From: Limnoperna fortunei
Taxonomy: Eukaryota > Mollusca > Bivalvia > Mytilida > Modiolidae
Length of the DNA: 64,000 bases
Reading direction: 5' to 3'
NCBI GenBank assembly: GCA_944474755.1
Contig: OX104118.1
Location: 87,775,860-87,839,859 of the forward strand
In this document: piece after piece, positions 2,078 to 63,389 of the stretch
Layout of the letters: the number at the start of each line of letters is the position of its first letter
How positions within the stretch are numbered: the first letter of the stretch is position 1
Notes under the pieces: model-generated
Told to the model about the DNA's origin: nothing
The model's database searches: none
Seen by the model: only the letters and a program-made list of their open reading frames with translations
Program-made: the position numbers and the translations under genes

Positions 2078-2212
2078 AGCACTTCTTACACATGTGTGGA
2101 CATAACTTGGAAGCTATACAGTCATCTGTACAGGGATACTGTAGTAGAACAGCCAGGCGGGTACATATGTCATTATCTAGATTGACACATATGCTGGGAT
2201 CCATGGTAGGGA
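2078..2212 (-). CDS. Gene A exon 6: second ShKT-type module
   Basis: Acceptor TATTTTTCAG, donor GTAAGT. Encodes PTMDPSICVNLDNDIC and then a Cys-rich stretch ending CPHMCKKC (Cys spacing 7-10-3-5-3-2). The protein is almost unchanged from gene B exon 6 (Y versus S before the third Cys), while the flanking introns have diverged. That pattern suggests purifying selection. Confidence 0.9.
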
Positions 2213-5200
2213 CTGAAAAATATACATATAACCTATGAGCATGGATCCATTGCGACATTAACATATCTTAGCACAATGCTTAGAAAACATATCTGGTGCG
2301 TGTGTCTGTCTTTATGAATCTGTTCATGTGTAATTCGTTGTTTTAATGAAGTTTAACGACACATTCAGCAATGTTTCATTTATGTCATTGCGTTCAGTTT
2401 TTATTGAGGAGGAAGACAGAGTACCTACAAAAACCAAAGACCTTCAGAAAAACTAGCATAGAGTGTTATTTTAGGTTGGGATCAAGCACACACTACTCGC
2501 ATTAAGGTGCAAACTCGCAACCTCTAGTGATATGGGACAGATATCATAACTTATTGGAAGTGTAATGGGATTCCGCTATCAATACTTAGTTGCAGGTGTT
2601 ACAGGGTTCCGGTATCAGTACTATCTGGCAGTGTAATGGTGTTCTTGCATTATTTAAGACTAGGAATGTAAATGGTTTCCGGTATCATCAATTACTAGTA
2701 GTGTAATTAAGTTACAGTGTCATTACTTAATGGTGTTCCGGTGTGTATAATTACTTACCGGAAGTGTAATAAGATTCCGGTATCATTACTTACTAGGATT
2801 ATAATGGGGTTCAGGTAAAATTTTCAGTAATGCCGGCGGCTGATTGTTACATTTGTCTTTGTTACAGCAACCAGCTTCAACATTTACTCTTTTGTTAGAC
2901 AATGAAGCATATTGCAGGCAGGTCTGAAACAGAGAATAAGGGTTTGCTAAAAGGTAAATAAAAAGTGAAAATTTATCCACAAATGAATATAATAATTAAA
3001 CATTTTTGCTTGTCACAGTAGTGTTACTCTCTGATGATAATATTGTCTTAAAATATAATTCTATAATATATTTTAAATAGTTGTAACAGATTTATTCTAA
3101 AAAAACAGACTAAAATGTTAAATTATAAACTGGATTAACGGACAATTCATTCAAAATATCGACGTGTGCTGTGTATTTTGTTTGTACGTTCTAAATATTG
3201 TCACCTTATCGGTTATTTTACTGATACATATTATTCTTGTGAATATTGATCTATTAAATGTTGCCCGTTCCTAAAGTTATAAGCAACATGTATTACATCA
3301 CCGAGGAGTTTCTATAACTGAAATCAACACAACCGCCGTTATAGTAGAATATAATCAGTGTTCAATTACCTGTCTATCGCCACATGCTAACTTACCTTTG
3401 TATCGTCACATGCTATCGTAATTGTATATCGTCACATGCTATCGTAATTGTATATCGTCACATGCTATCGTAATTGTATATCGTCACATGCTAACTTACC
3501 TTTTTATCGTCGCATGCTAACTTACCTGTCTATCACCACATGCTTACATACCTGTATATTGCCACATCATATTTTACCCGTTTATCGTTACGAGCTACCT
3601 TACCTATATACCGTCATATCCTAGCTTTTCTGTATGTCGTCACATGTTAGCTTACCTTTCTGTCGCCACATCCTAACCTGTAGGCTTCTGTAAAGTGGGC
3701 AGTAAATGTTTGTGCCGCAAAGCAATACTGTGAAGAGAAAACAGATATTTGTACTTTTTTAATGCTGCCTGGATGAAGGGCTAAGTTTACAGAAATAATC
3801 TGATAATCAACACTTTCTCTCTCTGGCAAGTTAATGATAGTCGACATGTTGTCTCTTTGGCAAGTAACTAGTTGTCACTCTTGGGTAAGTACCGATAATC
3901 GGAAAGATACCGGTAACTCTTGGGAAAATTACCGATAGAGTACATGCTTTCTCTCTCGCAAGCAACTGATAGACGACATGTTCCTTCTATGGCAAGTAGC
4001 TAATAAGCTAATAGTCGACGTGTTTAATCACGGAAAATTAACATACTCAACATGTTTACTTGGATGAAGTCACTGAATATTCAACATTTTTCACTCTATG
4101 ACAAGTGACTGATAGTTGACACGTTCATTATAGGAAAGTAACTGATTGTCGACATGTTTTAACTCTCAGTCAAATGTTGTCACTTTCAGGCTAGAACCAT
4201 TCATTTTATTAGCAACGGGAGATTGACAATGATGATATGTAAAACTTGTAATAAAGCATATAGAATTGTTTTGCAGCTTCTAGTAATTTACATTCAGTAT
4301 GACTAAGATGAGAGTCGAGGTAAAGTTAATAATAGATAAAATACATAAGTTGATACATACATCATTGGTATTCTGACAGGTAGTTAACGTTGTACAGTTC
4401 GTAATGTCTGTTTCATCAATGCATGTATAACACTGCAAGGCTGTAAAATACAACACTTAATTTAATATGATTTGTTAGCTGGTATCTGAATGGTTAATTG
4501 AGCTTCATCGCACGTTTTTACCGTTATTTTTGTCAAGATTAATTAAATTATAATGACTATTTCAAAATTTAAACAAAGTTATAATCTATAACCTGATGAT
4601 CTGGGTCTGTGTTGAAACCATTCATATACCACTCATATACACAATTATTAGGATTAACAATATTTTAAAAGCATTTTAATATTCACGAGTCAAACAGTAC
4701 CTAAATAGTCTTTTGTCCCATTAGCAAACAAAAGCATCAACCTCACTGTATAAACCGACACCACTTGCAGGTAGCAATATTCAAATAAGATTGGCCATGT
4801 GAAAATGCTATTAACGAAAGAATTTAGTTTCGCACAGTTGGTCTCTCACAAAATTTTTTATAGAGTGCATTTCATGCATGCAAACTTTTCCATGTATGAC
4901 GGGACACACGCAACAAAAATTGCAAAAACAGACCACACGATGAATACGCAAGAGGCCAGGAATGACATCATGAAGGACTGATACAAGTGATAAAATAAGT
5001 GATGAAATTACAAACATATAACACCAAGAGAGAAAAGATGCAAGGGCCAGTTTGCAAGATGATATAAGGACAAAACTAAGAGAAATACATGAACAGATGC
5101 AAGGGCAATGAATCTGATATATTGTTTGAATCTCCGCGACAGCAAATGGGTATATTATTAAACGAAACAATTTTTTCCAGGCCGTATTTTTAGAAAGATG

Positions 5201-8200: not shown

Positions 8201-10741
8201 ATATTTTACAGAACAATTATTAAATAATAAGAAATAAATAACATAATACACATCACTAATTGTTGATAGAAACGCTGCAAACTACTGGTCATTTAGAGCT
8301 TAAGCGTAACAATATATATTTGTGTTGATTATCTGAGTAATCAGTTCCCCTGAAATAATTACTCTATGTAATTTGCACTTTTTGGACCTGATCTTTTATA
8401 TTCTTTTAGATATTAGGTTATCTTAAAGCACAATAAAATGATTTTATCAATGTACTCAAGCGTATAATTATTCTAAATGGCAAAAACTAGTTTTTCAAAT
8501 AGATTTATCTGTCGTTCTTGATTCTGTTTATATCGTTATTACATTCCCATCATTGCCGAATACCGTACGTGTTGATTTCAACTAACCACATAGTCCACAC
8601 GATCGTTTGCAATACTTCGACAGACAGGGGTCGCCACACACGTTAGGCTCTCTGTTCATCATTAAGTCACACAATGAGGCATCGAAATCATCACATTGTT
8701 CTGCATTGACGGTTATAAAAACCAACAACAGGATTGCTGAAAAAAAATATAATGGCGGTTATTAATACAAAGAAATTAATAACTGAATAAAAATAAATAA
8801 CAGCGGTTATTTATACCAGTAATTTAATAACCTAATACAAATAAATATCGGCGGTTTTTTATACCAAGAATGTATTAACGGAATAAAAATAAATAATGGC
8901 GGTTATAAAGACCATGAACAGGATAATTAAATAAAAATACGTTGTTGCGTTTACATATACTGAGAATAGGACAACTTAAACATATGTAATTGCCGCTATA
9001 CATACAGAGAATACAATAATTGTCATTTAATAAGTAATAATATGTTTGTTTTAGATATGAGAAACAGACAATGTCAGTCAACTCATAGCACAATGCGATG
9101 TGATAATGATTTACTAGGAGTGTGAAAGGATGCCAAATTTTAAAATAAAATAAAAACAAAAGAACAAATTTCAAATATTTTTTTTGTACAAACCATATTT
9201 TACATTTAATTTTCGAATTTTTAAATTGTTTTAAGTAAACAAATTTGATCTTATTTGAAATATTTAAAAAAAATTAAATTATTTTTTTGCAATTTCTATT
9301 TTTTGACATTTATAATATTAAATGAATAACACAATAGAAGAAATCATAAATGACAAAAGGAAAATTCTATTTGGTAATTATGAAAAGTCAGTTGACAACA
9401 GGAACGTTTGCCCTAATTCAGAACTAGCTGTTCAAAAACTGTTTATCGTAAAACGAGCGTGGCAAGCAATCCAAACACTATGGTCCGCGCTTTCAGTTGT
9501 TATAAGCTGACAAAGCCATAACGAGTGAGTCTCCTGCCTGCCTCCTGGGAAAAACGTTAGTACATCTTATGTTCAAGCCCTGTAAACCGTTCCTGGTACC
9601 TTATGAATCCAATACAACGGCAGAATTAAGAATAGTATAGTTGGAACATAAGAAACAAGTCAGTCGTATTAAAGCTTGTGATTTCATCTATTTCTCTAAA
9701 AAAGCGCAGCAAATATTTGAAAATAATTACATATTCATAGGTTTCATACTTGTAAAAGTATTATTTTAAATTTTATTTTAAGTAGACATATGCATGTCAA
9801 ATGCTGATATGTTACAACTCTCACAGGTACCCTAACTTTTCCACGTTCTTTGTCGAGGGGAACCGTCCCTTCAATTTACTGTGGTTCTTACATATGTAGA
9901 GAGCATGAAAAGAAATTATATTGGTTAAAAGTTTTTATGATTAATGTGTCTGGAAAATGTCCACGGCAATGGTGGTACATAAAATGGTAACAACTTTCAG
10001 GGCTTGGTGTTAGCATGTGTTTTTGTCATCAGTTAAATCTGTGGTCAGCATTTTCTGTGCGAAAGTCAGTTTTAAGTAGAACATCGACACATGTATTGAA
10101 ATGTAATGTAAAGAATGCGAGCTTATTCCCTATATATATAACTTCCAAATCTATCTGTATTTGGATTACATTTGTATATTATTATGTCTCATATAATAAA
10201 CATAATGTGACAGTATTTTCGTGTTCGTATTTACGGTTATTATTGGGGTTTTTAGCAACAGAACCTCACGATATCATAAGGGAAATCCCCAGTTCAACAG
10301 AAAGCCCCAAAGCAACCGTAAAACATGTTGAGTTGTTGTTGACTGTTCAATATAAACTTGTTACACATTTTCAAGGCTGTGCTTGAAAGAAGTACATTAT
10401 GAAATCATTTATTCCATTTATTCGCCTTCGTTATACGAGGAAATAATTGACTGAAGTATACAGTTATAGCTTTAAATATTGAAATAGTTCACGTGTAGTA
10501 AATCAGCTTAACGTTAATATTCAAGGTTTGTTCGTTATCGCGATCTTTCGTGAACTTATTTCGAGCAGGTTTTGAAATCTTATCGTAAACACGTGGGTGT
10601 AGTATTTGCAGTGAATCACGAGATTATACACAAAGCAGACAATTGGTGTAATTTATTACACACAGTAAATTGAAATACATCTGATACAGTTGTTACAACC
10701 CACAGTGGATAAATAATAATTTATAACTTACTAGGCAACAT
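2078..10741 (-). CDS. Gene A: ShKT-Ly6-ShKT mosaic secreted protein, 5' six exons
   Basis: Six coding exons on the minus strand: 10732-10741, 8587-8736, 4361-4440, 3656-3727, 2794-2923 and 2078-2212. All have GT-AG borders and matching phases, and encode the first 192 residues. The product starts with a signal peptide (MLPTILLLVFITVNA). It continues with a Cys-rich ShKT-type module (Cys spacing 7-10-3-4-3-2), a complete ten-cysteine Ly6/uPAR three-finger domain beginning LQCYTC and ending CCNKDKCN, and a second ShKT-type module ending CPHMCKKC. Exon lengths (10, 150, 80, 72, 130, 135 nt) equal those of gene B, so this is a tandem paralogue and, in the visible part, intact. By homology with gene B, a second Ly6 domain and a CTLD should follow beyond the left edge. 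Extracellular location follows from the signal peptide and disulfide-rich domains. Ligand and role are unknown; a role in innate recognition is only a guess. Confidence 0.88.
2345..2530 (-). mobile_element. tRNA-derived SINE, degraded
   Basis: On the plus strand the copy runs from a TTTAACGACACATTCAGCAATGT-like 3' region, through an ACCAAAGACCTTCAG segment, to GTGCAAACTCGCAACCTC. The last is the reverse complement of a polymerase III B-box-like GGTTGCGAGTTTGCAC. Gene B has a related copy in the same intron (32640-32860). Confidence 0.6.
2530..2793 (-). repeat. Degenerate ~37-bp tandem repeat spanning the exon 5 splice donor
   Basis: Read on the minus strand, units resemble GTAAGTAATGATACCGGAATC followed by TTATTACACTTCCG. 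The first GTAAGT is the real donor of gene A exon 5. Further units repeat the donor-like core at about 2757 and, more decayed, to about 2530. Gene B has an even more degraded version at 33100-33239. Confidence 0.65.
2794..2923 (-). CDS. Gene A exon 5: Ly6 domain, last third
   Basis: Encodes TCLQYASLSNKRVNVEAG followed by CCNKDKCN, the diagnostic CC-x2-D-x-CN end of the three-finger fold, and a short Pro-rich linker. Acceptor CTGTTTCAG; donor GTAAGT after CCTA. Phase 0 in, phase 1 out. Confidence 0.9.
3365..3655 (-). repeat. 26-bp minisatellite built from the exon 4 3' end and its splice donor
   Basis: About ten units on the plus strand read ACCTGTCTATCGCCACATGCTAACTT or close variants. On the minus strand this is the end of exon 4 (GGCGATAGACAG) plus GTAAGTTAGCATG, so each good unit carries another GT donor. 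Gene B has a single copy of this junction, so the expansion is specific to gene A. Confidence 0.85.
3656..3727 (-). CDS. Gene A exon 4: Ly6 domain, middle third
   Basis: 72 nt, phase 0 on both sides. Encodes YCFAAQTFTAHFTEAY and then RLGCGDRK. Acceptor TCTTCACAG, donor GTAAGC. The 3' end and donor are the template of the 26-bp array immediately downstream. Confidence 0.9.
3800..4175. repeat. Degenerate ~40-bp tandem repeat in intron 3 of gene A
   Basis: Repeated motif GGCAAGTAACTGATAGTCGACATGTTT with strong divergence between units. The matching intron of gene B (about 34150-34270) has only traces. Confidence 0.6.
4361..4440 (-). CDS. Gene A exon 3: Ly6 domain, first third
   Basis: Acceptor TTTTACAG, donor GTATGT. 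Encodes LQCYTCIDETDITNC followed by TTLTTCQ; LxCYxC is the classical opening of Ly6/uPAR domains. Confidence 0.9.
4441..5285. other. Intron 2 of gene A, no recognised element
   Basis: AT-rich sequence. The two opposed open frames near 4800-5170 match no family I know. Confidence 0.4.
5599..6218 (+). repeat. Inserted segment, copy 1 of an 847-bp tandem duplication
   Basis: Not minisatellite. It ends in TTCAAATAAAG followed by repeated TCTATGT, which looks like the 3' end of a LINE or other retroposed sequence with a simple tail. The 64-residue open frame inside is hydrophobic, and I do not consider it a gene. Confidence 0.8.
6446..7065 (+). repeat. Inserted segment, copy 2 of an 847-bp tandem duplication
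   Basis: Virtually identical to 5599-6218, offset by 847 bp. I noticed only one difference (GTATCATG versus GTATTATG). This implies a very recent duplication of the insert together with part of the flanking array. Confidence 0.88.
7525..7790 (-). repeat. Dispersed mussel-type repeat, inverted copy
   Basis: Reverse complement of the repeat at 20107-20770. It shares the CATTGTCTAAATTT, GTGTAGATAGCC and TTGGTATCTTTGATGACATTTTAT blocks and the AGACGAAACGCGCGTCTG core (7722-7741). Confidence 0.8.
7791..8586. other. Rest of intron 2 of gene A, nothing recognised
   Basis: AT-rich sequence without motifs I can name. Confidence 0.4.
8587..8736 (-). CDS. Gene A exon 2: signal peptide and first ShKT-type module
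   Basis: Acceptor is a T-rich tract ending CAG; donor is GTTAGT (gene B has GTAAGT here). It encodes the rest of the signal peptide, then EQCDDFDASLC and a Cys-rich stretch ending CKRSCGLC. The terminal C-x3-C-x2-C is the ShKT signature. Phase 1 in and out. Confidence 0.88.
8700..8960 (-). repeat. ~55-bp tandem repeat spanning the exon 2 splice acceptor
   Basis: The plus-strand theme GGCGGTTATNNATACCAAGAA...ATAACTGAATAAAAATA recurs about four times. The first unit overlaps the 5' end of exon 2 (signal peptide codons) and its acceptor. Gene B has the same arrangement at 37240-37375, so the repeat predates the gene duplication. Confidence 0.7.
8961..10731. other. Intron 1 of gene A; no element recognised
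   Basis: Contains a 123-codon open frame at 10015-10386 without recognisable homology. A segment near 10525-10620 aligns by eye with gene B intron 1 near 38385-38490 (GTTCGTTATCG-GAT and CGTGTGGGTGTA themes), consistent with tandem duplication of the whole gene. Confidence 0.5.
10732..10741 (-). CDS. Gene A exon 1 (start codon)
   Basis: Ten coding bases, ATG TTG CCT A, followed by donor GTAAGT. The start is chosen because gene B has the same ten-base exon at 38604-38613, and because joining to exon 2 gives a clean signal peptide in phase. Confidence 0.82.
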
Positions 10742-14382: not shown

Positions 14383-14603
14383 TTAAATTTTTTTAATACA
14401 CAGCGCCTGATGTAAGTCTACACATGAAGCTGGCTGAACACTAGAGAAAGTTAGTCCGTGAAGTCCGGAAGTGAAGCGTGCCGTGGCGCAAGCAAAAGAT
14501 CCACTATTTGCGAATTGATTGTTTAAAAATATTTGTGGCACTACAGACCGGTCGTGACTCCAAATCCACTGGTTGTGTTCTTTAACGATATCTGTAAACA
14601 CCT
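14383..14603 (-). CDS. CTLD terminal exon, distal copy (possible alternative last exon of gene B)
   Basis: Acceptor TTTATTTATTTGTAG followed by AGGTGTTTACAG, phase 1, 221 nt including the stop. These are exactly the length and phase of gene B exon 12. It encodes VFTDIVKEHNQWIWSHDRS and later ASCVDLHQALCIKKI. Cysteines and the WIW motif are preserved and the frame is open, unlike the middle copy. It could be an alternative 3' exon of gene B, spliced from exon 11 at 27958, or the stranded tail of another paralogue. A candidate AATAAA follows the stop. I cannot tell from sequence alone which copy is used. Confidence 0.7.
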
Positions 14604-18850: not shown

Positions 18851-18944
18851 ATGAAATTAAACTTTAATTTAATTCCCTTCAGTGGATTAGGAGAAGTAAC
18901 GAGGGTACCACTTTTTATGCATGGGGGAGGAATAAAATAATATA

Positions 18945-23435: not shown

Positions 23436-23640
23436 GTAGGCGCAGCCTAAATGCGAGCATCGAAGATTGTTCATGTCATTACTTCATAGTCCCCTAACAG
23501 TGCCTCTACATTCCATGGATGACGTGACGTCTTATCTAATGTGTTGGTGACGTCACAAAACTCAATTTCAAATACAGCGTTACAGATTGAAAAAAGATTG
23601 ACTGGCATTTATGTAGTAATTTAAAAAATAAACACTTTAA
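23436..23640. other. Short unique stretch between arrays
   Basis: Contains two TGACGTCA-like palindromic motifs but nothing else recognisable. Confidence 0.35.
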
Positions 23641-25101: not shown

Positions 25102-25322
25102 TTATATAATGCACAGCGCTTGGTGTAGGTCGACACATGAAACTGGCTGAACGCTAGAGACAGTTTGTTTGTTAATTCTGTCGTAAGTGAAGCGTGCTGT
25201 AGCGCAAGCAGAAGGTCCACTTTTGGCGAATTGAGGGGTCAAAAGGGATTGCGGCACTAAAGATCGGTCGTGACTCCAGATCCATTGGTTATGTTCATTT
25301 TTTACCATATCTGTAAACACCT
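25102..25322 (-). CDS. Gene B exon 12: CTLD end and stop, proximal copy
   Basis: Acceptor GATATATTTGTAG. Encodes EVFTDMVKNEHNQWIWSHDR...ACATARF and ends SCVDLHQALCII stop. WIW and the last three CTLD cysteines are present. It is the proximal of three copies of this exon. Confidence 0.87.
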
Positions 25323-28300
25323 CTACAAATATATCAAAATTAAACGAAAATAACAATGTCATGAAGGACACGATAAATTAAATAACCTGTAACACGTCTG
25401 CGTACATGAGACTAGATAAACGTATGCTTAAATATATACAACATTACTTTAAACAAAATGTGTCTTCATCTACAGACACTTGATACGAACCCACCGGTCG
25501 ACAAGGTAAATGTTATAGGACAAGAAGTCTAAACTTTAACAACTGCAATCCGTGCACACTTATTAATTTCCCCGCTTCATATCCCAAATATTATTTAAAT
25601 TAAGATATAAAATATCAGGTACGCAATGACACTGTATATCCTGAAAACCATATATGAGAGGAAAAATCTATTAACCATAATAAATAACTAATAAAAAACG
25701 GATACAAAAATTACATAAAAATGAATAGTATAAATTTTGACAAATATTGAACTATTTACAAAGGTGTCTTATTGCCTGTTTTTCAAACACGTTAATTTGT
25801 AGTATGCATTTTAATGTCAATTTCCAAACTTAGACATTATTCCCAATAAACTCGGATACTAATGAAACATTTAAACACAATCTAAATAAACGTTTTTGAC
25901 CTCTTTCAACTAACAAAGGTAAGTGAAGGCTACTAGTGAAAATAGAGAAAGAAAGGGTTTTAATTTAAGTTCAAAATTATATTGTTTTAGACCACAAAAA
26001 CTGGATTGTCATCGAAACAAATAGAGACATAGGTAGATAAAGTAAAATATTACAACTTACATGTTTTGTGATTATTTAACTGGCTGATATGTTTCGGCCA
26101 AGGAGGAGTCATTTTAAATCATAAATATATATAAAAGACTTATATATAAAATAAATGAAACATGATCACTTTAGGGCACAACAAAATAAATTAACGAGAT
26201 TTTGTACATATATAGTTTGCTGATCGATTGAATACAATGTTTGTTAACATCATATCTATTACTATGAAATATAAAAGTACTTTAAGACACACTTTTTAAC
26301 CTGTCCTGATATATTAACTCAAATCGAATTTAACTAAATATAGTGCATAAAATATATATTTATATAATTATTTAAAAATAATAAAAATTCCGTAGATAAT
26401 TTGCACGTCCTTAAAATGGAAATTGTACCTGGAAGAGACAATTTTAAAGGTAAATCATTTCTCGTTTATGACGGGTAATTAACAGCATTAGCAGGTAAAC
26501 AAACAGGATGTTTATTGGAATTACTAGATCATTCTACGGCGAGTTTGAAGTATGAATATTCGGACATTTTCAACAGCTAATCAGGTTAAAGGTTAATCCT
26601 GTAATTCGAAATTAGAACGGCACGTCCATCTCCTGCCAAGGGCAGGTATGATTTGAATACACAGAAGTGTGAGAACACAGGATGTTATTTTGTATATAAG
26701 TTTTCGAATACCTTAAAATGTCACATCACAGGAAACGTAAAAGTGATACGCTGACATTAATAAATAAACACACGTAAAATTTTGAAAAACGTGTTACGCA
26801 CAAGCACAAGAAATGTTACCAGTAATAATAATAATAATAATAATAATAAATGTACTAAACATGAAGTGCAATTTTGATGCGTGAAAACAGAGTTATTAAA
26901 AATTTATATTAAAAATATATTGTGTTTAATGACCGTTATTTCTTAAATAGTCAACTTCGCAAATATTTTGTATAAAAAGTTTTGTTTAATAAGATGAAAA
27001 TAATGATACGAACAATTTAATTCATATTTATGCACAATATTCAAACTTATATTTGAGGAAAAATAAAAAATGAGGTCATATTACCATTAAACTATCCCCC
27101 ATGCAACATTCTTCAAAAATGATCTTCGCACACGTTGTTGCTGCAGTGGACAGTCTCTAACAGAACTACTTGTTACACAAGTCGGGGTTTTTGCTAAGAT
27201 TAGGAATACGAAACGTAAAATTTCCAGAACCTCGTCTTATAATACAACCTTCTATTATTGACGCGTTATTATCAGACGTGGACGTTAAGGTATGTGGATG
27301 CCAAGTGATCTCTAGTATCGCTATATAGGGGCGATATATGGACACATGCAGAAACTACACCATTGAACATAAAATAAAACATCAAAAGGCAAAAGTGTTT
27401 CTTTTTTATTGAAGAATAACATCAAATTTGATTTTTTGCGAAGTTTTCCTTTAAATTGTATTCAATAAACTATTTGATTTTGAATTGACAACATGCCTAC
27501 ATTTGCTGAACATAGAAACATACCAGGTTCTAAAAGGACTTAATTTTTCGAGCTCTTTTGCTTACTCCTAAATTGTGTTAAGCAAATCCGAGTTTTACAT
27601 TATTCAATAAATACATATTCTTTTACCAAGAATCTACACAAAGAATTTAACTGCAAAAAATAGGTAGTGAAAAGGTATTACTTAAATATGTGTGCGAAAA
27701 TAATTCATTTAAAGCCAATTTAGGGGCCTCGGTGGCCGAGTGATCAAGGTTGTTCGTCTACTATTGATCACGTTGTCTGTCAACACTGAGATTGCGGGTT
27801 CTCCCAATAAAAACTGGACGCCATGATATATCTGAAAAATTGCTGAAAGTGGCGTAAAACATCAAACCAATTGTTTTGTCCCGATAAAGTCTATTTTTAT
27901 AAACTGTCCAGAAACGTTCGTAATTATCTGAGAAAGAACTGATTAAATAAGACTTACCAACACGCTGGAAACCATGCAAATTAAGTAGAGCTATTTCATT
28001 CAGAGTATGAAAGTATACTAAGTCTGCACATTGGTCCTTACAATATTTCTGAAAGAGCAAAATATGAATTGAAAAAATGCTTTTCCGGAAACAAATTATC
28101 CGAGTTTTGATCAGAATAGGCTTTAAGCTTAATATAAAATGAGAAAGGTAAAACTTATTTATTTCGTATGTGGTTATGTGACAAAGGTAGGACACAATGT
28201 TGACATACCTCGAGAGGTTGCTAAGTTGGGCTCATACCACTTGAAAACAACCTCTCCCAAGTTAAACACAAACAAAAAGCCATAAAAATATCCTGGTTAT

Positions 28301-31300
28301 AACATTTCTTGATGTTCATCAGAATAATACAAATCATTTGAACAATGTATTTTCATTACAATAATTACATATCCTTTGAATGATCTACATTTGAAATGGG
28401 TCTTCTTGCGACGGCAACGTAACCAATTCTGTTAATATTGTCTTTCTCTTTATGCCAAAGTAAAGGAAATGTTAAAAAAATTTAATAACAATTATATCAT
28501 AATATGTCATTTGAACAGGTATTAAAGTCTTACAAAAAACCATGAACACTATGATTATCTTCATGACTTTTCTCTAAAGACATCTTATTCAATCTAAATG
28601 CCACGACTTCCATTGAAAGGCCAAGACAATGATTTACATCTTAGGACAACGACATACCTTTATCAATGTATTTGAATTAGACATTTTTTACATGACGTGA
28701 AATTAGTGTGTAACACGAAATGTCTGATGTTAAAGAATGTTTTCGCGCAACACACGGATTAAATGTGATTAATCCATAACCAGATCAAAGGAAAAATGCC
28801 GTATTATGTTACATTGAGTTTTAACAATAAGGGCAGGTGTTAAATATAATCAGTTAAAGATTGTTCTGCAAGACTTAAAACCGTACTTGCTAAGGATCTC
28901 GCGCCATATTCGTTTGTGTTAGGTCTCTTAAAATTGTGATATAAATAATTTTTCATTTTACACAGAAAGTAAATAAAACACGTAATTACACATTATATTG
29001 AACTGATTCGCTTGCAAGCGGATTAGCATTGATATTTGGCATTCCCCTGGTATTTTGTATCTTGTGTCGTGGTATTTTCTAAAAAGGCGTCATTTTACCT
29101 TCATGTTCTAAGCACTTCAGGTATATCCGATGTCGTTTTGCCCCTTAGATCCTTAGATGAATAGTTGCCGAAAAATACCAGTCTAGAAATAAATTTTCCT
29201 TGACGGGGAATTTCTTATCTCGAGACTGGTGTTTTAGCAAATATCCATTCAAAGAATAATATATCTGTTTAATATGCAAAAACAGCATACCTCTGCCATC
29301 GATCTATTCATTTCTATGCTGCCAGAAAACAAAAAGCAATTACGGCCATGCAGAGTAAAACCAGATGGACACACACCTGGTGAATGGACACATTCTGAAA
29401 GAAATACCACATGAATGAATACAAATATATAAACGTAAACAATGCCAAAACTCTGATATCTCTTAGATATAGAGAATAATTTCCGCTTATTCCATCTGTT
29501 ACAATAATTATTATGACAGATAGGTTTTTGGTGTGGCCTCTACTCAAGGTACGTTCTTTATGTCACAAAATCTATTGTACAGGTCAAATATATTATTGGC
29601 ATGATAATGTGGTTTAGACTAGTGTCACCGTAAATGTATATTATGCAAATAACATGGACGGAACAAATAACTATAAGTCTTTTAAGATTCCCATCCCGAG
29701 GTGTTGTGTGAGCTTTTATTACGTTTTTCATCTAAGTAAGTAGGATCGGTAGCTAAACTATTATGTTACACATTAATGGTTATGGTAACGAGTAGTGATG
29801 ACATGGACATACAGGAGTGGCCTAGATTGATATTGCGTTATTTTCGTGGCATTCATAGAGCATGTAATCGATAAAACTGTAGAGAATATAGTCTAGTAAT
29901 ATATTCTACAACAGTGTATGACAGTTAAGTAGTCATATCTTTTCTGAAATTTCATTAAGGATATACAATTTCAGATTGGTGAATTTCCCTGTATTGTAGT
30001 TTTGCGGAAATGTGTCAGTACAGGGTAACCTCTACTAAATAGCAAATCAGCTGATGCCGTAGTAAAAGGTAGTGCCTTAAAAAAACCAAAGTAGTTCTAC
30101 TTTCACTTTGCATAAAAACTGTAGTTCTGAACGAACCTTTTTAAAATTAAGTTTATATGATGCACAAATATTTTAGAAGTGATATGAATCCACATTTAAT
30201 AATTTCAAGCAAGTATTAGATTTTGTTCGAAACTTAACAGACTGGCACCTGTTTCTATACATCTGACAACCGAAACTAGCTCTATTTGTGACGTCATATC
30301 GTAAACTTTACAAAACATTCTTATTAGACTTTATTGTTGTGCCGGTCATATATGTTTTAGCGAAGAAAGGGTATTTTGAGAAAATAAGGTTGTAACTAAA
30401 AGTAAACTTAAGGTAAATTCAGTATTCTATAAAATGTTATAATTGTCACCTGTGTAAATCTATTTTGTAGAGGTTAACATACAGGAGTAATGAAGATACT
30501 CACGTTTCGGTGTGGTAGGAATCGGTGTAATGGAGATACTCACGTTTCAGTGTGGTAGGAATCGGTGCAATGGAGATACTCACGTTTCGGTGTGGTAGGA
30601 ATCGGTGTTGTAGTAGTTGATAATGGATGAGCATTACACTTGTCACCAATACAACAATTGCCGCTAAAACTAAAATCTCTTTTTCCAAAAATGTGACTTG
30701 TAGACGATTGCAATTGTTGACATAACTGAAAGAAAACTTCTCATGTTTTATTGTCTGCCGAAAAAAATCACAGACTTGCATGCTACATGTACACAAGAGT
30801 TTTGCCTAATTTCATACAGTTCATTTCTGAACATGTTATACTATATAATATGGTCTGGGTTTGTTTACGCCTAATAAACCGCGAAGCGTTTTATGAATGG
30901 TGTGAAAAGACCCCAACCATATTATATCGTATATCTTGTTAAGAAATTTGAAATATTCCTTATAATATAATTACAATTTTTATAGTAAAAATGTCGATGA
31001 AGTCACGGAACTATTTGAATGTTAACGGCGTAAGAACAGGTCAAAGGTCACGCAAGTTATATCTTATAATATGGGTTGCTCGATTTGAATTAACCAACCA
31101 GATTTCAGCTTACAAAGAAAATTAAAATATACACGTATAAAACAAAAACTGTAAATGTGTAGTTTAGTCAGTTAAGTCTGATTCTTTCATTGAAAAAATA
31201 CAGCATATATTATAACAAGTACAATAACTCGTCGCCAGTAAACTCAATTTGTGATCTTTAAATAATCCTTAAATGGCGGCAAGTAATAAAATTCGATAAT

Positions 31301-34300
31301 TGTTATCTCCTAATTACATGATTTAATGACAGTTATAAAGGGTAAACACCCACAATAATATTCAAACCTTTTCATCGAAACATCCAAGCTGAACAGCAGG
31401 TAGAAAATTTGAACCTAGCTTTTCAAACCCATAGCATCTCTGTAAAAAATGCCTATGATTGTAAATGTGTCATGTGTAAAATCTACAGATACGATTACCA
31501 TAGAATCTGTGTAAAACGTATAGATAAGATCGCAATAGATTATCTGCAAAATATAGTTGTAATGTAACAATAGCGTCTCATTCAAATACAAATTAGGTTA
31601 CCAAAAATCTTTTGCTAAAAACTATAAGTATATTACCTTATCATAAGTCAGAACTTTGTACAGCTAGCAGAACGGTGAAAACGTTAAAAATGTTAATTAA
31701 GGCTTTTATTACCATACTAGACGTGCCAAATTTTACAAAATTGTGTTTTGATTGAATGCAACATAAGCTGATAAATTTCTAAGAAATGAAATTAATTTTT
31801 AATTAAAATGAAGACAATTCATTGATTAATTTTAGAAATTGAATATAGCAATAAACGCGACACACACGTTTACAGTATAAATTGTGATATAATAAAGAAG
31901 TCATTTTCACCACACCTTTCCATCCCCACAGGCTGTAGTCTGTGTACAGTTATTGGGGTGTGGTACCTCATGGCAGTCCAGACAGTAGACTGCAAAGAAG
32001 AAAAGAAATGGGAAAATAAAGCATTTTGGAAATGCCTTTCGTGTGCTCTTTTCGTTTTTATGGGAATGTTTTGTTACATGTCACAAATCCTTTCAGTTTA
32101 AACGGTTTAATAATTAATATTGCATTGAAACACACTCCATTTGGGTATTCCCTCTGCTCTTCCTGGAAGATGGCTATAACTGTCTTACATTCTTCTGCTT
32201 TTAATGAAACATGGATATAGCTATCTAACATTGTTTAAGCAACATGTATTGTTTAGTTTAAAATAGTCTTTACGTCTACTTTCTTGTAGTCAAGCATACT
32301 AGAGGTAGATCGTTGCTAAATGTGCAGACATGTTGTGCAACTTAAAGTTTGTGTCATTATTGATGAAGCTTCTAGAAACATTATACATAACTTACAGCAC
32401 TTCTTACACATGTGTGGACATAACTTGGAAGCTATACAGTCATCTGTACAGGGGGACTGTAGTAGAACAGCCAGGCGAGTACATATGTCATTATCTAGAT
32501 TGACACATATACTGGGATCCATGGTAGGAACTGACAAATATAAAATATATATATAATATATATGTAACATATGAGCCTTAGCATATAGCGATATTAATTT
32601 ATCTGTTCTTTGTCTGAATGTTTGTTTGTTTGTTTGTTACAGAGTAAACGCCCTTTTCAACAATGTTCACCTATATATCATTGTGTGCATTTTTTTTAGG
32701 CCGAATGCAGGAATACTCGACAGGAAAACTAGCAGTCCCTGTAATTTAAGATTTGAGCACACCGTGAACACAGGAAGTCTCGAACCCGCATCATCACTGT
32801 TGAAAGCATTCAATCAATAGTAAATGACTAACAACCTAAGCCACTGAGGCCTCCTGTAGGCTATGAATTGATTGGTTGGTTGATTTGTTGGTTAATTGAT
32901 ATAATGTTTGATTTAACGTCCATCGCTATATAACGGAATAGAATCAGTTAACACACAGTAAATAAAGCTGAAAACGAATAGACCAATGGTAACACAATTT
33001 TGACCTTCATTGAAAAACGTCGTAAACGGACGAATAATTTAGTCTTTTGAGAAAAAAAATGTGCCTACGTTTTTCGAAATCTTCTTAAGAATTTAGCATT
33101 ACTTAATGGCACTGTTACGGGGTTCTAGTAGCTTTACTACTGGCAGTGAAATGGAGTTTCGTTATTACTTGCTGGGTGTTAATTGTGTGTGGTGTTAGTT
33201 AGTTGTGACAGTGTAATGAAGTTCGGCATGATTACTTACTTGCAGTGTAATGGGGTTCTGGTATAATCTTCAGTAATGCTGGAGGCTGATTGTTACATTT
33301 GTCTCTGTTACAGCAGCCAGCTTCGACATTAACTCTTTTGTTAGACAATGAAGAATATTGCAGGCAGGTCTATAAAATTACTTTATGTCAAAAGAAGGAA
33401 TTGTATGCAAAAAAGATTGATCCATGAACGAAAATTAAGAATGTCACATGATTGCATTTATTTTCTGATAGAAAGTTTCTCATGAAACAAAAATTTAATA
33501 AGTAAAGGTAAAAAGCGTGCCCTAACGTTAAACTAATGACAGTCAGTGTGCACGACTCAAGACAGTATTAACGCGCGATGTTTAAAATTGTGTCGTTTAA
33601 TTTAGTAAAAATGTATGAAATAGAATAATGTTGGTCGTATTATCAAAATTAAAACAGCTTAAATAAAAACTTCATAAGATAAAAACCATTTTATTCACGC
33701 AAAGATTACAATGTTAAATTGACACAATTTATTTAAATAATAATGTTTTTTGTTTTTTTTCAAAAATATAATTAAAAAACAATTAAAGAAAATATATTCA
33801 ATAGAAACATGTATGAGCTATACTAACGTGAAATTCGCATCAAATATAAAAGTATACGATTCACGTGAGCAAAATATGCGAGTTTATATTAGTCTTTTAA
33901 CATAGAAGTAAAGAAACCTAAACCCCACAGCCTTGTTTCAACAAATGGTGTTATCACAATTTAATCTTACCTGTCTATCGCCACATCCTAACTTGTAGGC
34001 TTCCGTGAAATGGGCGGTGAATGTTTGTGCCGCAAAGCAATACTGTGAGTAAAAAAGAGAGATGTAGACAAATTTTGGTATTAGGTAGATCGTTGGATCC
34101 ATAAAGTCTTGCAGTCTTGTATTAACATTTATATTTTATTATAAGTTTACAAGAGTATCCATCACAAGGACTATAGTGAGTTGACAAGTAACGAGTAGCT
34201 ATCTGATCACATCTGGAGAGATACTGGTAGTCTGCATATGTTTACTCGTAGACAAGGATCATTGAATATTCTGATATAACTAGGACTGATTTATTGATTG

Positions 34301-37300
34301 ATTTAATGGTTTTGCAGGCTCCAGCGAAAATAAGAAGCAACGGTAAAAAATCGGAGTGTTTTTTTTAAAAGTATAAGGTTGGGATAGGGGCGACACATTT
34401 AGCCTTTTTAGCGGCTACAATGAGCCTACTCTTATCGACGCTTAAGGAGCTTGATACTCTCTCAACACGTACCAAACTTGTCTGTGGCTAGGATTTCGTT
34501 GTAATGACCCGATAATCGCCGAAATATAGGCCAAAACTATCTTCCACCTCGTGATGAGAAAAGCGACGTTATAAGTCGGGCGTTTACAAATATCCCAGCA
34601 TGGTCTTAATATGAGAATATAAGATGGTCATCCGGATATATCGCAACATCTACAAGGTGTGAGAATAAGAATGTTAAATTGTAAAACCAAGCATGAAACT
34701 ATTAATTTGTATACATACATCCTTGTTATTCTGACATGTAGTTAACGTTGTACAGTTCGTTACATCTGTTTCATCAGTACATGTATAACACTGCAAGGCT
34801 ATAAAATATTAATATATCGGGATGGTTATGTCTATGCAAGGACGCGATTGTATGAAAACAGTTACAACTATTCAACTACAGCAGGTATAGAATACAGACT
34901 TCAATAAACACATAACATATTGTCTGTATGTATGCAAATTTATTAACAGTTGTCTCGGTGTTCGGTATTTTGTTATTAACTTAGTTAAGCGGACGTGTTG
35001 CGAATAATTGATTTTCACATTAAACATATTTAATAGGATAGAAAAACTAATACTGGTAGTTTTTATTTACACGTATGCATTTTAACAAATAATAATAGCA
35101 TTCACAGTTTCAAACAAGCTGTAGATGCTGTTAAGTAATTATCATTATATGAAAAACCTAGAATCATGTACGAGTTTAGAAACAGGTAGAGATGGGAGTT
35201 GAGAACCAACAACCAAAAATAAAGCAACTGCTACAATGGTTCTGATTCGGTACAGCTATTTCAAAAATATATGGCAAACATCCTGCTTGAAAAGCGGAAT
35301 TGGTGTGTTAATAAAAATGCTAAGTATCATATACCACTGGTCATTAATGCTTGTATCAAAATAATCATCTCAGCACAATTTCCATGTACTGCCTTCAAAA
35401 ATTGGGAAAACTATATTTTCACACTAGAAATAGTATCTACTGTTAAACTTGTTAAATACGCGGATAAGCGTAATCTATTGTACATGTCAAAACCAAAGAA
35501 ATTGCTGACGTTTGAAAAAATAAGTATATTCATTTTATTCCTGATCAATTGAGAAATATACACATGAAATGCATGATTATGTGGAATATTGCAGCACAAG
35601 TGAAAAAAGTTATAATTTTGAAATTAAAAGGCTTTATGTATGATTTCTGTAGAACATGATTTTACTTTATCTTCAGTCGAGGTGATATAAAGAGTTAAAA
35701 AATCAAACGTTCTAATTTATGAAATTTTAGATATAAATCTTAATTTTAAATTTGTCAAAAAAAAAATTTTATCGAGCACATAGATAAGCCGGCGATGCAC
35801 TTATTTTGTAAGGATTTTTATTTCATTTTGGAATCCAGTACAAGAATGTTTTAGACTATTTGTCGTTTACAGAAGTCATGAAGGAGCTATGGTTTCATCT
35901 TTGTCATTGTGGAAGGTTTGTATATTGGAATACCAAATTTATCATTGATGCGTGGCTCTTTCATGAAGCATTCGTAGCAATGTGACTTACAGAAAACCAA
36001 TGTTGTTAGAAATCTTATCATTGAGGAAAGTGAGACAACTCATAGTAATGAAGATTTAGGTCGATCATTAATACCATGTCCAAGATTCTTTATGCGAAGT
36101 TTTACCAAAGACATTTTTCTTTTATCGAGTTAGAGAGTTCATCTAGTTCTGGGTCTTGTTCCCATTTTTTTTTCTTAACCCATTCCCTGGAATAGTCTTT
36201 GACGGCATTCATAATAGTTTTGAAATTTAAATTCCAGTCTACTAGTGGAGGTGTTCAGAATTTAGGAACACGAAAAATATTTTTTCTGATTTTCAGAGTA
36301 CTAGAAATGACATGACCAGAAGAGTCAGAAGAATAGGAACACGTGCATTTAGTAGATTGCTTGAGTCATGCTTCTATGTTTACGTCCTGCGATGCTTATT
36401 TGTAATTAAAGATTTTGCGGACAATAATGTTGTTATATTAATAAGACGTGATTGTTTGTTTTTGTAATGAAAAATGACCTTATATTTCGTATCTTTACTT
36501 TTGAGAATATTATCGATGTTAACTCCATTAATTCCTTTATTTCTGAATAACATTTGAAAGAATGTTCTTTTTTAACCAAAAAGAGGCCTTGTCTTCACGC
36601 GTTTGAAAGACGGAAAGCAGCTTTGTCGCTATCTATTTTGTGTAGCAAAGGGATCTATTCCTACAACCTCAAGTGCATAAGCCTTAAAAAGTTTGACAGT
36701 TGACAAGCGTAAAAAAGAGTGGTATGAATGTAGTGTAAACCAAAGGGTTGTTAAAAAGTTAGAAGTCATTATACCTATCGTAGAAAGATTTCTCTTTAGT
36801 TGTTGGAATTTTTTATTTGGTGGCCATATCTTCTTTTGTATTAAAAACTGGTGTTTCATTCACTCCATTGCAGGCTGAACTTGATAAATTAGCAACATAT
36901 TCGATTTTATCTTTGCCACCGAATATCTCTTTTTTGTGAAACGGTGTGAGGAGTATGGGACTAATAGTATGGCGGTAAATGTTTTTATTAATCGTAATTT
37001 TATAGACAAATAATTTTGGCTTCATTTGTCTATGCAAAATTTATAACTATAGTACATTCTTGTACTCGATTACAAAATTACACAAAGGTACTGATTATGA
37101 TATGTTTATTTCAACTTACCACATAATCCACACGATCGTTGGCAATACTTTGACAAACAGGGGTCGCCACACACGTTTGGTTCTCTGTTCATCATCAAGT
37201 CACAAAGCGATGTATCGAAATCGTCACAGTGTTCTGCATTCACGGTTATAAGTACCACGAACAAGATAACTAAAACAACAAATTATGGCGGTTATACAAA

Positions 37301-38613
37301 CCAAGAATGGGAAACAGGTAACTTTCACAATAAAATAACGGTTATAAATACTAAGAATTTGATAACTCCTTTGTACATCACACTGGAAATTGGACAAATA
37401 CAAGCTACGGTAACAATTGTAATATTTTTGAATATATACGAAAAACGACAACGTGCACCAAAATCTGTTTTAAACCTCCTTAAAAGGATGAACATAAGTG
37501 TCCGCATGAAATCACTGTGAAAACGATTTATGAAGACACGTTAATTCGGTTTAGGTGATTATTAAGTCACCAAAAGATGATTTTCAGTACAGAGTAGTTA
37601 ACTTAGGAATGTTGGTATTCATGACAATGCAGATAGAATAAGAGATATTTAACAATAAGAGTGTTGGCCTTCTCATGAAAGTGCAGTTGACAATAGGGTG
37701 AGTTGGCTTATTCATGAAAAGGCAGCAGACAATAGGACGAATTGGTACGCTAATGAAAGGGCAGTTGACAATAAAAGAGTAGGTATATTCATAAAAGGTC
37801 AGTTGACAATAAAGGAGTTGACATACTCGTGAGAGGGCTGTCGACAATAAAAGAGTTGTTACATGTATACTAATGACAGGGCAGTTGACAATAAAAGAAT
37901 TAATGATCATAGAAGGACTGTTGTCAATAGGCATGCTGGTAATCGATGTACCAAATCAGAGGAAAACGGAGATTTCGCAAGCATGAAATAATAGTTGAAA
38001 ATGGAGATATGATACGCATGAAATTATGTTTGACAGCGATAAAATTGGTACTTTCTTCAGTTTAATCTCATGAATGTCTCTCAAACACACTGTACAAATT
38101 TTCACATTTCAAAACAATTTACAAATTAAGTTTGTTTTAAATTTGGGTTTATACAAAATTATGTGTAACTTAAATGATCGATAAATTAAAATAGCCTGTA
38201 AGTTTAATTGTTTTGGCCACACCTGGTACCTTAACCAGTTTTCATGCACAGAACACACTGCTTCATACATAGTCTTTGATACATACATATTTTGTTTTTG
38301 ACAAGTTTAACTAGCTATATATAGTTAATGTGCTGTTGTTGTCATAGGATTTAACACAATGCTATAACCATACTTCAGTCAGGTTTGTTTAGAGTTTGTT
38401 CCTTATCGTGATGGTTCGTGTCCTTATTAGAAATCTGATTTTAGAATTGTATCTTAAGCGTGTGGGTGTAACAACTACATGAGATTCGCTTATAGCAATT
38501 CAATCCTAGATAAAAACAAGGTGAATAGTACTGTACTGAATAACCCGCAGTAAATTAAAATAGTTATCTTACAAACTGTACTAAGAGAAAATATATAACT
38601 TACCAGGTAACAT
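25102..38613 (-). CDS. Gene B: secreted ShKT-Ly6-ShKT-Ly6-CTLD mosaic protein, 12 exons
   Basis: Exons: 38604-38613, 37120-37269, 34719-34798, 33971-34042, 33240-33369, 32396-32530, 31916-31989, 31368-31439, 30584-30725, 29291-29394, 27958-28048 and 25102-25322. They sum to 1281 nt and 426 residues; all junctions are GT-AG and in phase. Domains: signal peptide about 1-15; ShKT-type module 18-53; Ly6/uPAR 55-130; ShKT-type module 156-192; Ly6/uPAR 194-272; Thr/Pro linker 276-288; C-type-lectin-like domain 290-426. Both Ly6 domains have ten cysteines and end in CCxxDKCN. The CTLD opens CPSGFTLHGRNCF and closes CVDLHQALC, but I see no EPN/QPD or WND motif, so calcium-dependent sugar binding is doubtful. 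The signal peptide and disulfide-rich modules indicate an extracellular protein; no membrane anchor follows the CTLD. Function is unknown. Confidence 0.9.
25330..27720. other. Gene B intron 11, mostly featureless
   Basis: AT-rich; a short remnant of the ~36-bp array occurs near 25925-25960. No exon recognised. Confidence 0.5.
26822..26850. repeat. (AAT)n microsatellite
   Basis: About nine AAT repeats. Confidence 0.9.
27724..27868 (+). mobile_element. tRNA-derived SINE
   Basis: The head GGGGCCTCGGTGGCCGAGTG contains a polymerase III A box, and a degraded B box GCGGGTTCTCC lies near 27794. The 3' part CAATAAAAACTGGACGCCA...TGCTGAAAGTGGCGTAAAAC matches the SINE at 59082-59214. Confidence 0.78.
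27958..28048 (-). CDS. Gene B exon 11: CTLD middle
   Basis: KYCKDQCADLVYFHTLNEIA then LLNLHGFQRV, matching the A-x-x-C...L...E...L helix-2 region of CTLDs. Acceptor GCTCTTTCAG, donor GTAAGT, phase 0 in and 1 out. Confidence 0.85.
28049..29290. other. Gene B intron 10, nothing recognised
   Basis: No repeat or exon identified. Confidence 0.4.
29291..29394 (-). CDS. Gene B exon 10: start of the C-type-lectin-like domain
   Basis: Acceptor TTTCTTTCAG, donor GTATGC. In the frame set by exon 9 it reads QCVHSPGVCPSGFTLHGRNC then FLFSGS...RSMAE, the characteristic beginning of a CTLD. A different frame is hydrophobic and ends at a stop, but it is out of phase. Confidence 0.85.
30085..30165. repeat. 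Dispersed repeat fragment, copy 1
   Basis: AAAGTAGTTCTACTTTCACT and following sequence recurs at 54715-54790. Confidence 0.55.
30498..30617 (-). repeat. Three 40-bp units spanning the exon 9 splice donor
   Basis: The unit on the plus strand is GATACTCACGTTTCGGTGTG plus GTAGGAATCGGTGTAATGGA. On the minus strand each unit carries the linker end CCACACCGAAAC and donor GTGAGTATC (exon edges at 30584, 30544, 30504). Confidence 0.92.
30584..30725 (-). CDS. Gene B exon 9: second Ly6 domain, part 3, and Thr/Pro linker
   Basis: Encodes LCQQLQSSTSHIFGKRDF and later NCCIGDKCN, then a linker with PLSTTTTPIPTTPK. Acceptor TCTTTCAG. The most proximal of three GTGAGT donors (after 30584) is chosen because it alone keeps the frame into exon 10. 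Confidence 0.87.
31368..31439 (-). CDS. Gene B exon 8: second Ly6 domain, part 2
   Basis: 72 nt, the same length and phase as exon 4. Encodes RCYGFEKLGSNFLPAVQLGC then FDEK. Acceptor TTTTTTACAG. Donor GTTTGA is atypical. It was found by its fit between exons 7 and 9. Confidence 0.78.
31916..31989 (-). CDS. Gene B exon 7: second Ly6 domain, part 1
   Basis: Encodes YCLDCHEVPHPNNCTQTTAC then GDGK, the C-x2-C...NC...C pattern of a Ly6 opening. Acceptor CTTTGCAG. Donor GTGTGG is weak but gives the right phase. Confidence 0.82.
32396..32530 (-). CDS. Gene B exon 6: second ShKT-type module
   Basis: Acceptor TATTTGTCAG, donor GTAAGT. PTMDPSICVNLDNDIC and a Cys-rich stretch ending CPHMCKKC. Nearly identical in protein to gene A exon 6. 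Confidence 0.9.
32640..32860 (-). mobile_element. tRNA-derived SINE in gene B intron 5
   Basis: The reverse complement begins GGAGGCCTCAGTGGCTTAGG (A box) and contains GCGGGTTCGAGAC (B box). The far end holds the same CAACAATGTTCACCTATATA-type 3' region as the gene A copy at 2345-2530. Confidence 0.75.
32868..32930 (-). mobile_element. Second SINE 3' tail
   Basis: GATTGGTTGGTTGATTTGTT...TTGATTTAACGTCC is the reverse complement of a GACGTTAAATCAA plus (CAAC/CAAT)n SINE tail, directly upstream of the other SINE's head. Confidence 0.6.
33100..33239 (-). repeat. Degraded donor-spanning repeat at gene B exon 5
   Basis: Loose repeats of CAGTGTAATGGGGTTC...ATTACTTACT, matching the better preserved array in gene A at 2530-2793. 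Confidence 0.5.
33240..33369 (-). CDS. Gene B exon 5: first Ly6 domain, part 3
   Basis: TCLQYSSLSNKRVNVEAG followed by CCNRDKCN and a Pro-rich linker. Acceptor AATTTTATAG, donor GTAAGT. Confidence 0.9.
33971..34042 (-). CDS. Gene B exon 4: first Ly6 domain, part 2
   Basis: 72 nt, phase 0/0. YCFAAQTFTAHFTEAYKLGC then GDRQ. Donor GTAAGA; unlike gene A, no array has grown from this junction. Confidence 0.9.
34385..34600. repeat. Dispersed repeat, weak similarity to 47990-48240
   Basis: Shares CCTTTTTAGCGGCTACAATG with GAGCCTA and a following ACTCTC-CAACACGTAC block. Similarity is weak elsewhere. Confidence 0.35.
34719..34798 (-). CDS. Gene B exon 3: first Ly6 domain, part 1
   Basis: Acceptor ATTTTATAG, donor GTATGT. 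Encodes LQCYTCTDETDVTNC and continues to CQNNKD. Phase 1 in, phase 0 out. Confidence 0.9.
35200..35440. repeat. Dispersed repeat, copy 2
   Basis: Related to 11590-11860 (GAACCAACAA, TTCTGATTCGGTACAGCTAT, AAAAATTGGGAAAACTAT). Lies in gene B intron 2. Confidence 0.6.
35830..37030 (-). pseudogene. Decayed coding sequence of unknown family in gene B intron 2
   Basis: A minus-strand frame near 36120-36260 reads PPLVDWNLNFKTIMNAVKDY then SREWVKKKKWEQDPELDELS. Frames on either side (for example SDSSGHVISSTL near 36280-36345, and CYECFMKEPRINDKFGIPIY near 35925-35985) are also protein-like but broken by stops. I do not recognise the family. A dead mobile element or retrocopy is most likely. Confidence 0.45.
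37120..37269 (-). CDS. Gene B exon 2: signal peptide and first ShKT-type module
   Basis: Acceptor TTGTTTTAG, donor GTAAGT. Encodes EHCDDFDTSLCDLMMNREP and ends CQRSCGLC. Cys spacing 7-10-3-4-3-2 has the C-x3-C-x2-C ending of ShKT modules, with one extra cysteine. Confidence 0.9.
37240..37375 (-). repeat. ~55-bp repeats spanning the gene B exon 2 acceptor
   Basis: The ACGGTTATAAGTACCACGAA...GATAACT theme recurs twice more downstream (GGCGGTTATACAAACCAAGAA; ACGGTTATAAATACTAAGAA), parallel to gene A 8700-8960. Confidence 0.65.
37590..37950. repeat. ~40-bp tandem repeat in gene B intron 1
   Basis: About eight units of GGGCAGTTGACAATAAAAGA plus GTTGGTATACTCATGAAA. A 116-codon open frame here is an artefact of the array. 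Confidence 0.85.
38604..38613 (-). CDS. Gene B exon 1 (start codon)
   Basis: ATG TTA CCT G then donor GTAAGT, preceded by GCTGCC, a favourable start context. It joins exon 2 to give the signal peptide MLPVILFVVLITVNA. Confidence 0.85.
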
Positions 38614-61532: not shown

Positions 61533-61616
61533 TAAATTAATTTGATATTTAATTAAAATGACATTACGATGAACGCATTATACAGAAGGCTGATCAAAGA
61601 CTCGTCACATTGTCTT

Positions 61617-63185: not shown

Positions 63186-63389
63186 GAGCTGATCTGTCGT
63201 AAAGTGATCAATGGGGATAATAGTCGCATTATATTTAGTGACGATATCACACAACGTGTTTTGAAAGTTACTTGTGACATGTGTTTGGTAATGTGACATG
63301 TCCATGGTTTCTTCTCAGTCACATTATAGCGTTTAGTGGGCTGAAGTGTCATATGTAATTAACATGTCTTGTTTATTTTCATGTTAAGG

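Follow-up and report, generated by a model that had tools for sequence, protein, structure and literature searches.

Two ShKT-like–LU units and a C-type-lectin-like domain in one predicted protein family of mussels and oysters

According to a 2019 review, Ly6/uPAR (LU) domains occur alone or repeated upon themselves, with few exceptions, and are probably not bona fide mobile modules (PMC6600238). The same review describes LU exon sets flanked by phase-1 introns in uPAR (PLAUR), LYPD3/C4.4A and CD177, a typical vertebrate LU of two exons with the inner intron at the tip of loop 2, and an N-terminal LU without the 7-8 bond in these three human proteins (PMC6600238). We describe here gene A, on the minus strand of a 64,000-nucleotide stretch of Limnoperna fortunei DNA (contig OX104118.1, positions 87,775,860 to 87,839,859; the whole stretch is called the window), whose predicted product carries two LU domains, two ShKT-like modules and one C-type-lectin-like domain (CTLD). 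As in the human proteins, its LU exon sets are flanked by phase-1 introns, whereas each LU is encoded by three exons with two phase-0 introns, one residue ahead of Cys5 and Cys7, and both LU domains keep ten cysteines; the LU exon count is a trait of gene layout and lies outside the fold definition. Unlike the uPAR-type multi-LU proteins, no glycosylphosphatidylinositol (GPI) signal was found here (by hydropathy only), and the LU domains are joined to unrelated modules. Since LU is here combined, across phase-1 borders, with two kinds of module unrelated to it, the family speaks against the view taken in the review.

The other modules also have described counterparts. The family CTLD has its fold in common with the CTLDs of LOX-1, DCIR2, NKR-P1 and Mincle, from which it differs by two more cysteines and by the lack of a detectable transmembrane stretch (hydropathy). 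CTLDs of the natural killer (NK) receptor type lack the calcium/sugar motif, as does the family CTLD. With ShK/ShKT proteins the ShKT-like modules have in common the six-cysteine spacing ending in CxxxCxxC; they differ by a seventh invariant cysteine and by scores below the Pfam cut-off. The bivalve-specific CTLD proteins reported in 2023 (PMC10140915) are likewise bivalve-only, uncharacterised and made of a CTLD joined to other domains; an overlap with the five-module family is possible. Neither Ly6, uPAR nor ShK turned up when the main texts of this and a second work on bivalve C-type lectins were searched for these terms. The module order was not found described among the literature matches listed, in agreement with a preliminary description of the window; subscription journals are mostly outside the coverage of that search, so this is not proof. 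The protein is not unique to the window: uncharacterised Mytilus and oyster proteins in the databases, namely P0001 (LOC134688096), P0004 (LOC143047793), P0009 (LOC105331275) and P0011 (LOC105337323), have the same five modules, order and cysteine count, and no paper was found by locus name for these four or for LOC127725952. The modules are thus known ones, in an order new to the searched literature and with LU used as a shuffled module, and the proteins are already in databases.

Exon chain and modules of gene A

The exon chain of gene A was rebuilt from the raw sequence by reading frame and splice signals (positions in Table 1). Its 12 exons, which run from 38613 to 25102 with GT-AG boundaries at all introns, join in frame into 1281 nt that encode 426 residues and a stop codon, with no internal stop. 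The protein consists of a signal peptide, a ShKT-like module, an LU, a second ShKT-like module, a second LU, a Thr-rich linker (17 residues, 7 of them Ser or Thr) and the CTLD, and totals 42 cysteines. The intron phases after exons 1 to 11 are 1,1,0,0,1,1,0,0,1,0,1: module borders are phase-1 introns, the phase-0 introns are those within the LU domains and that after exon 10, and the second inner intron of the CTLD (11/12) is phase 1. The preliminary description had proposed twelve small exons joined in phase, phase-1 introns at 2/3, 5/6, 6/7 and 9/10 and a 72-nt middle exon in both LU domains, all of which proved correct, and its order ShKT-Ly6-ShKT-Ly6-CTLD is supported. When exon 6 was given the nearest acceptor the frame was lost; the in-frame acceptor, also used by the tandem copy (gene B), yields the exon retained here. 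Exon 11 has the best splice score among 37 candidates, and candidate CTLD exons at 26950-27400 are interrupted by stops whichever frame is read.

Gene B has 12 exons in the same order and with the same phases, and encodes 428 residues. Eleven of the twelve exons are equal in length in A and B, exon 12 being 227 nt in B against 221 nt in A. The full-length ratio of nonsynonymous to synonymous substitution rates (dN/dS) is 0.172 (NG86) or 0.235 (YN00) over 425 codons, and in the equal-length exons third-position differences are the highest in 10 and tied in 1 (exon 1), with exon 11 as the weakest case (8, 4, 9). The DNA matches that hold exons extend at most ~125 bases past them. Within these flanks A and B are still 70-86% identical, which is fairly high as well; the exons are therefore marked out by how far the matches reach and by the codon pattern rather than by diverging flanks. 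Given copy B, the exon chain of gene A is not due to chance.

We then looked at the identity of each module. In a Pfam scan of the whole 426 residues at E<=1, the only families to appear were Toxin_TOLIP, in two stretches, and UPAR_LY6, in one. Scanned alone, LU1 passes both Pfam cut-offs (UPAR_LY6 34.2 bits vs 24.8), and LU2 remains below both (UPAR_LY6 18.2 bits vs 24.8, TOLIP 18.0 vs 21.2). The ten LU cysteines, in a pattern ending CCxxxxCN, are found in 10 of the 11 members for LU1 and in all 11 for LU2; LU2 was filed as an LU because of these ten cysteines and of its whole-length match, within the second ShKT-LU unit, to the first. Of the two complete Ly6/uPAR domains claimed previously, the first is recognised by Pfam and the second by its cysteines and this match.

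Lectin_C was unreported from the whole protein, and the gene A CTLD alone passes its cut-off (25.7 bits vs 22.6), so that scanning the joined protein, a check put forward in the preliminary description, recovered Ly6 and missed a CTLD that its own segment reveals. Among the relatives, P0001 passes Lectin_C as a whole protein (29.6 bits), and the whole-protein scans of P0002-P0004 did not report it at E<=1. In a structural model of P0001, residues 300-438 match the CTLD structures of LOX-1, DCIR2, NKR-P1 and Mincle; the alignment covered these residues only and thus says little about the folds of the ShKT and LU modules. With the canonical CTLD disulfide pattern as the standard reference, all 11 members have eight CTLD cysteines, the core-disulfide positions among them; the two additional ones (289 and 329 in A) are inferred to pair with each other. 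EPN and WND are given as calcium-site motifs in PMC12842671, and EPN/QPD-type motifs are lacking in 11 of 11 members.

The canonical ShKT spacing consists of six cysteines with the ending CxxxCxxC. This spacing, plus one extra cysteine, was present in all 18 aligned modules. The profile evidence for the earlier assignment of two ShKT-type modules is weak: both gene A modules scanned alone had no Pfam match at E<=1, and 6 of the 18 modules match PF01549 (ShK) at E<=10, the best E being 0.47, below the curated cut-off. ShK is the only Pfam family matched by any of the 18. A profile search against solved structures gave the ShTK domain of 7l2g as best match (E 0.058), followed by 7yrx LH3 (E 0.71). 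The model of the module has three helices (predicted local distance difference test score, pLDDT, 69.1; predicted template modelling score, pTM, 0.33), and this low-confidence model had no Foldseek match at E<=10. We named these modules ShKT-like because their Pfam matches stay below the cut-off.

Relatives and the internal duplication

A protein search gave five matches; an alignment search gave ten, of which three were already among the five. As the preliminary description had suggested looking for, bivalve proteomes contain uncharacterised proteins with the same domain order in Mytilus and in the Pacific oyster: five-module members, whole or nearly so, come from M. trossulus, M. galloprovincialis, M. 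edulis, M. californianus (P0008, whose LU1 is incomplete) and C. gigas. A fusion (P0005) and two fragments (P0010 and P0012) were excluded from the counts. In the database model P0005, from M. coruscus, a glycosyltransferase-61 domain is fused to the ShKT-LU arm; the fusion is probably a gene-model error. P0003, which resembles P0005, has 461 residues encoded by 1386 nt including the stop, whole on a 1417-base contig. Because the window genes span 13 kb and more, P0003 is best read as a spliced transcript, the alternative being an intronless genomic copy. The five-module protein looks like a genuine, old family and not a quirk of a single sequence.

Two sequences close to C. gigas P0011, P0016 and P0018, have frames that run into or through introns and thus allow intron sites to be located. 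These were judged by eye against P0011, with P0018 read from the raw sequence since the aligner misplaced it. Sites 4/5, 5/6 and 7/8 can be seen on either side, 5/6 with an uncertainty of a few residues, site 6/7 has its donor side in P0016 and its acceptor side in P0018, and sites 3/4 and 8/9 are one-sided; all six coincide with window introns, the intron phases being unprovable from proteins. As these six sites agree, the exon map, beyond the domain order, looks old. The result is a family of genes whose exon maps match, both between tandem copies and in oyster-like sequences.

The preliminary description had also proposed an internal duplication of the ShKT-Ly6 pair, and three lines of evidence agree with it. 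In a profile-profile comparison, units 1 and 2 (ShKT + LU) match over their whole length (99.6%, E 1.3e-23), with few sequences in the profiles and a heavy weight of the cysteines. Each unit consists of one ShKT exon and three LU exons with the same inner intron sites. Finally, when the 18 units of nine proteins (gene B and P0008 not among them) were placed in a tree, first and second units separated, oyster included, with support 100/99. Since this split includes oyster, the comparison places the ShKT-LU duplication before the mussel-oyster divergence, which is Palaeozoic. A search with a single unit gave 6 matches, consisting of a Saccostrea partial model, single-unit models from Saccostrea and C. 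gigas, and three fragments; no single-unit ancestor was found among them, and both single-unit models align with the second unit and seem to be parts of a five-module gene. Taken together, the five-module architecture is real and old. LU has been kept with unrelated modules since before the mussel-oyster split, which makes the question of LU mobility testable.

Secretion, divergence and possible function

After the signal peptide, neither A nor B has a membrane-span or GPI-type stretch by hydropathy, the only measure applied (19-residue maximum 1.18 in A and 1.28 in B). The signal peptide and the lack of a detected anchor suggest a secreted protein, and the label "receptor-like" given previously finds no support in a chain that ends in its CTLD with no anchor stretch found. 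The CTLD is also the module that has diverged most. Between A and B it is 72% identical, against 88-97% for the other four modules; in comparisons with gene A it has the lowest identity in 9 of 10 and shares the lowest value with LU2 in the remaining one (P0011, both 31%); and between two oyster paralogs it stands at 33%, against 61-78% for the other modules.

The reading we favour, with about an even chance of being right, is that of a soluble extracellular recognition protein, likely in mucosal or haemolymph defence, with a variable CTLD head on a conserved, disulfide-locked ShKT-LU arm. The secreted protein would work in extracellular recognition, its C-terminal CTLD, devoid of a calcium/sugar motif, serving as a variable ligand-binding head, and the better conserved ShKT-LU-ShKT-LU arm would act as a stem, locked by disulfides, to which a shared host partner binds; the fast divergence of the CTLD and its lack of sugar-site motifs fit such a division. 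The seventh invariant cysteine of each ShKT module would probably form a disulfide that links modules or chains. Gene A has 42 cysteines, an even number, and the two extra ShKT cysteines could therefore pair together or between chains. The family draws attention to an unstudied class of proteins, built of several modules and probably serving recognition, in animals without antibodies. Several observations weigh against this reading. CTLD dN/dS is 0.30, purifying on average, and its divergence would look the same under relaxed constraint. The ShKT identity, which comes from sub-threshold matches, is the weakest of the module calls. The 19 C-terminal residues are mildly hydrophobic (1.18 in A, 0.74 in B), and the full-length model is poor overall (mean pLDDT 64.5, pTM 0.35), with module packing and disulfide partners unreadable in it.

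Other explanations were weighed against the same evidence. Neighbouring genes, one for a ShKT-LU protein and one for a separate CTLD protein, might have been wrongly joined: the chain was built from frame and splice signals alone, a lone copy of CTLD exon 12 sits between A and B, and a third gene left of the window (gene C) shows LU2 and CTLD exons only. This is made extremely unlikely by the Mytilus and oyster database proteins that carry all five modules, by the single contig that holds P0003 and by gene B, which repeats the 12 exons. Endogenous modulation of ion channels or nicotinic receptors, comparable to that by SLURP/Lynx LU proteins and channel-blocking ShK peptides, is unlikely without being negligible. 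ShK peptides block channels, for which a Lys-Tyr dyad serves, and both LU domains here keep their ten cysteines; LU proteins with nicotinic-receptor roles are known. A Lys-Tyr pair does stand beside a cysteine in ShKT module 1 of A and B, but the relatives have KF, KL, TL, TV, AI or SI, and there is therefore no conserved channel-blocking dyad; the five-module size and the fast-changing CTLD would also suit recognition better.

We consider unlikely, too, that the protein has a structural or adhesive function in mucus, byssus or shell matrix. A paper on limpet mucus adhesion mentions both ShKT and C-type lectin (PMC7333891), but apart from the short Thr-rich linker the protein is made of strongly constrained folded modules, and its head is divergent. 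A role in gamete or self/non-self recognition, to which the fast-changing head would lend itself, seems very unlikely, since the CTLD average gives no sign of positive selection (a domain average, not a site-level value). Bouncer and SPACA4, which act at fertilisation, are the precedents for it; both are named as single-LU proteins in the LU review (PMC6600238). A variant of the recognition protein starts from finger III of LU2, where F-G-[KR]-R is present in all 11 members compared, mussel and oyster, and partial gene C has F-G-R-K-R. This motif reads like a basic protease site, and a cut in the disulfide-held finger might switch the ShKT-LU arm, with the variable CTLD directing the molecule to its target. 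We regard such protease-triggered recognition as quite unlikely; were it true, it would come with a clear case of LU as a mobile, exon-shuffled module.

Neighbouring copies and repeats

Searching the window with the gene A protein (tblastn) gave a further exon set (8734-2058) and, by itself, one CTLD exon (14607-14395). The exon set belongs to gene B, which runs past the left end of the window, with exons 7-12 to the left on contig C8. The lone exon has an open frame and an intact acceptor, its dN/dS (NG86) is 0.30 to A and 0.47 to B, and its own Pfam scan gave nothing at E<=0.1; gene A may use it as an alternative last exon, or it may be the remnant of a lost gene.

Table 1. Gene exons and repeats located in the window
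Feature	Positions	Strand	Content
Gene A exon 1	38604..38613	-	ATG and first part of signal peptide; 10 nt, outgoing phase 1; kept in gene B
Gene A exon 2	37120..37269	-	Remaining signal peptide and ShKT-like module 1 (7 Cys)
Gene A exon 3	34719..34798	-	LU domain 1, Cys1-4
Gene A exon 4	33971..34042	-	LU domain 1, middle exon, 72 nt
Gene A exon 5	33240..33369	-	LU domain 1 end and linker
Gene A exon 6	32396..32530	-	ShKT-like module 2 (7 Cys)
Gene A exon 7	31916..31989	-	LU domain 2, Cys1-4
Gene A exon 8	31368..31439	-	LU domain 2, middle exon, 72 nt
Gene A exon 9	30584..30725	-	LU domain 2 end (F-G-K-R in finger III) and Thr-rich linker
Gene A exon 10	29291..29394	-	CTLD start
Gene A exon 11	27958..28048	-	CTLD middle
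Gene A exon 12	25102..25322	-	CTLD end and stop codon
Gene B exon 1	10732..10741	-	
Gene B exon 2	8587..8736	-	ShKT-like module 1
Gene B exon 3	4361..4440	-	LU1
Gene B exon 4	3656..3727	-	LU1
Gene B exon 5	2794..2923	-	LU1 and linker
Gene B exon 6	2078..2212	-	ShKT-like module 2
Lone CTLD exon 12 copy	14384..14603	-	Between genes A and B; open frame, acceptor intact
Donor minisatellite	30487-30608		A exon 9, 3 x 40 bp
Donor minisatellite	3366-3677		B exon 4, 12 x 26 bp
Donor minisatellite	2542-2639		B exon 5, ~36 bp
Large satellite array	18932-23436		24-bp units
Large satellite array	61625-63178		27-bp units
Large satellite array	63405-64000		28-bp units
Large satellite array	5337-7343		27-bp units

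The flanks of the window, searched over 50 kb on the left and 40 kb on the right, gave only gene B and part of gene C, the right side being empty at E<=1e-4. Gene C lies on the plus strand of C8 at ~87754810-87758665, facing gene B. Counterparts of exons 7, 8, 9, 11 and 12 were recovered, closest to P0002; no ShKT or LU1 exons were found within ~29 kb upstream at E<=1e-4.

A long minus-strand frame at 61605-63305 falls mostly within a 27-bp array and is probably not a gene. Tandem minisatellites were observed to start at 5' splice sites, the exon end and the donor being repeated into the intron. The control for this pattern had a 95th percentile of best identity of 1.0, inflated by the satellites of the region, and hence does not discriminate. 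A donor repeat of this kind is also seen at exon 9 of gene B, left of the window.

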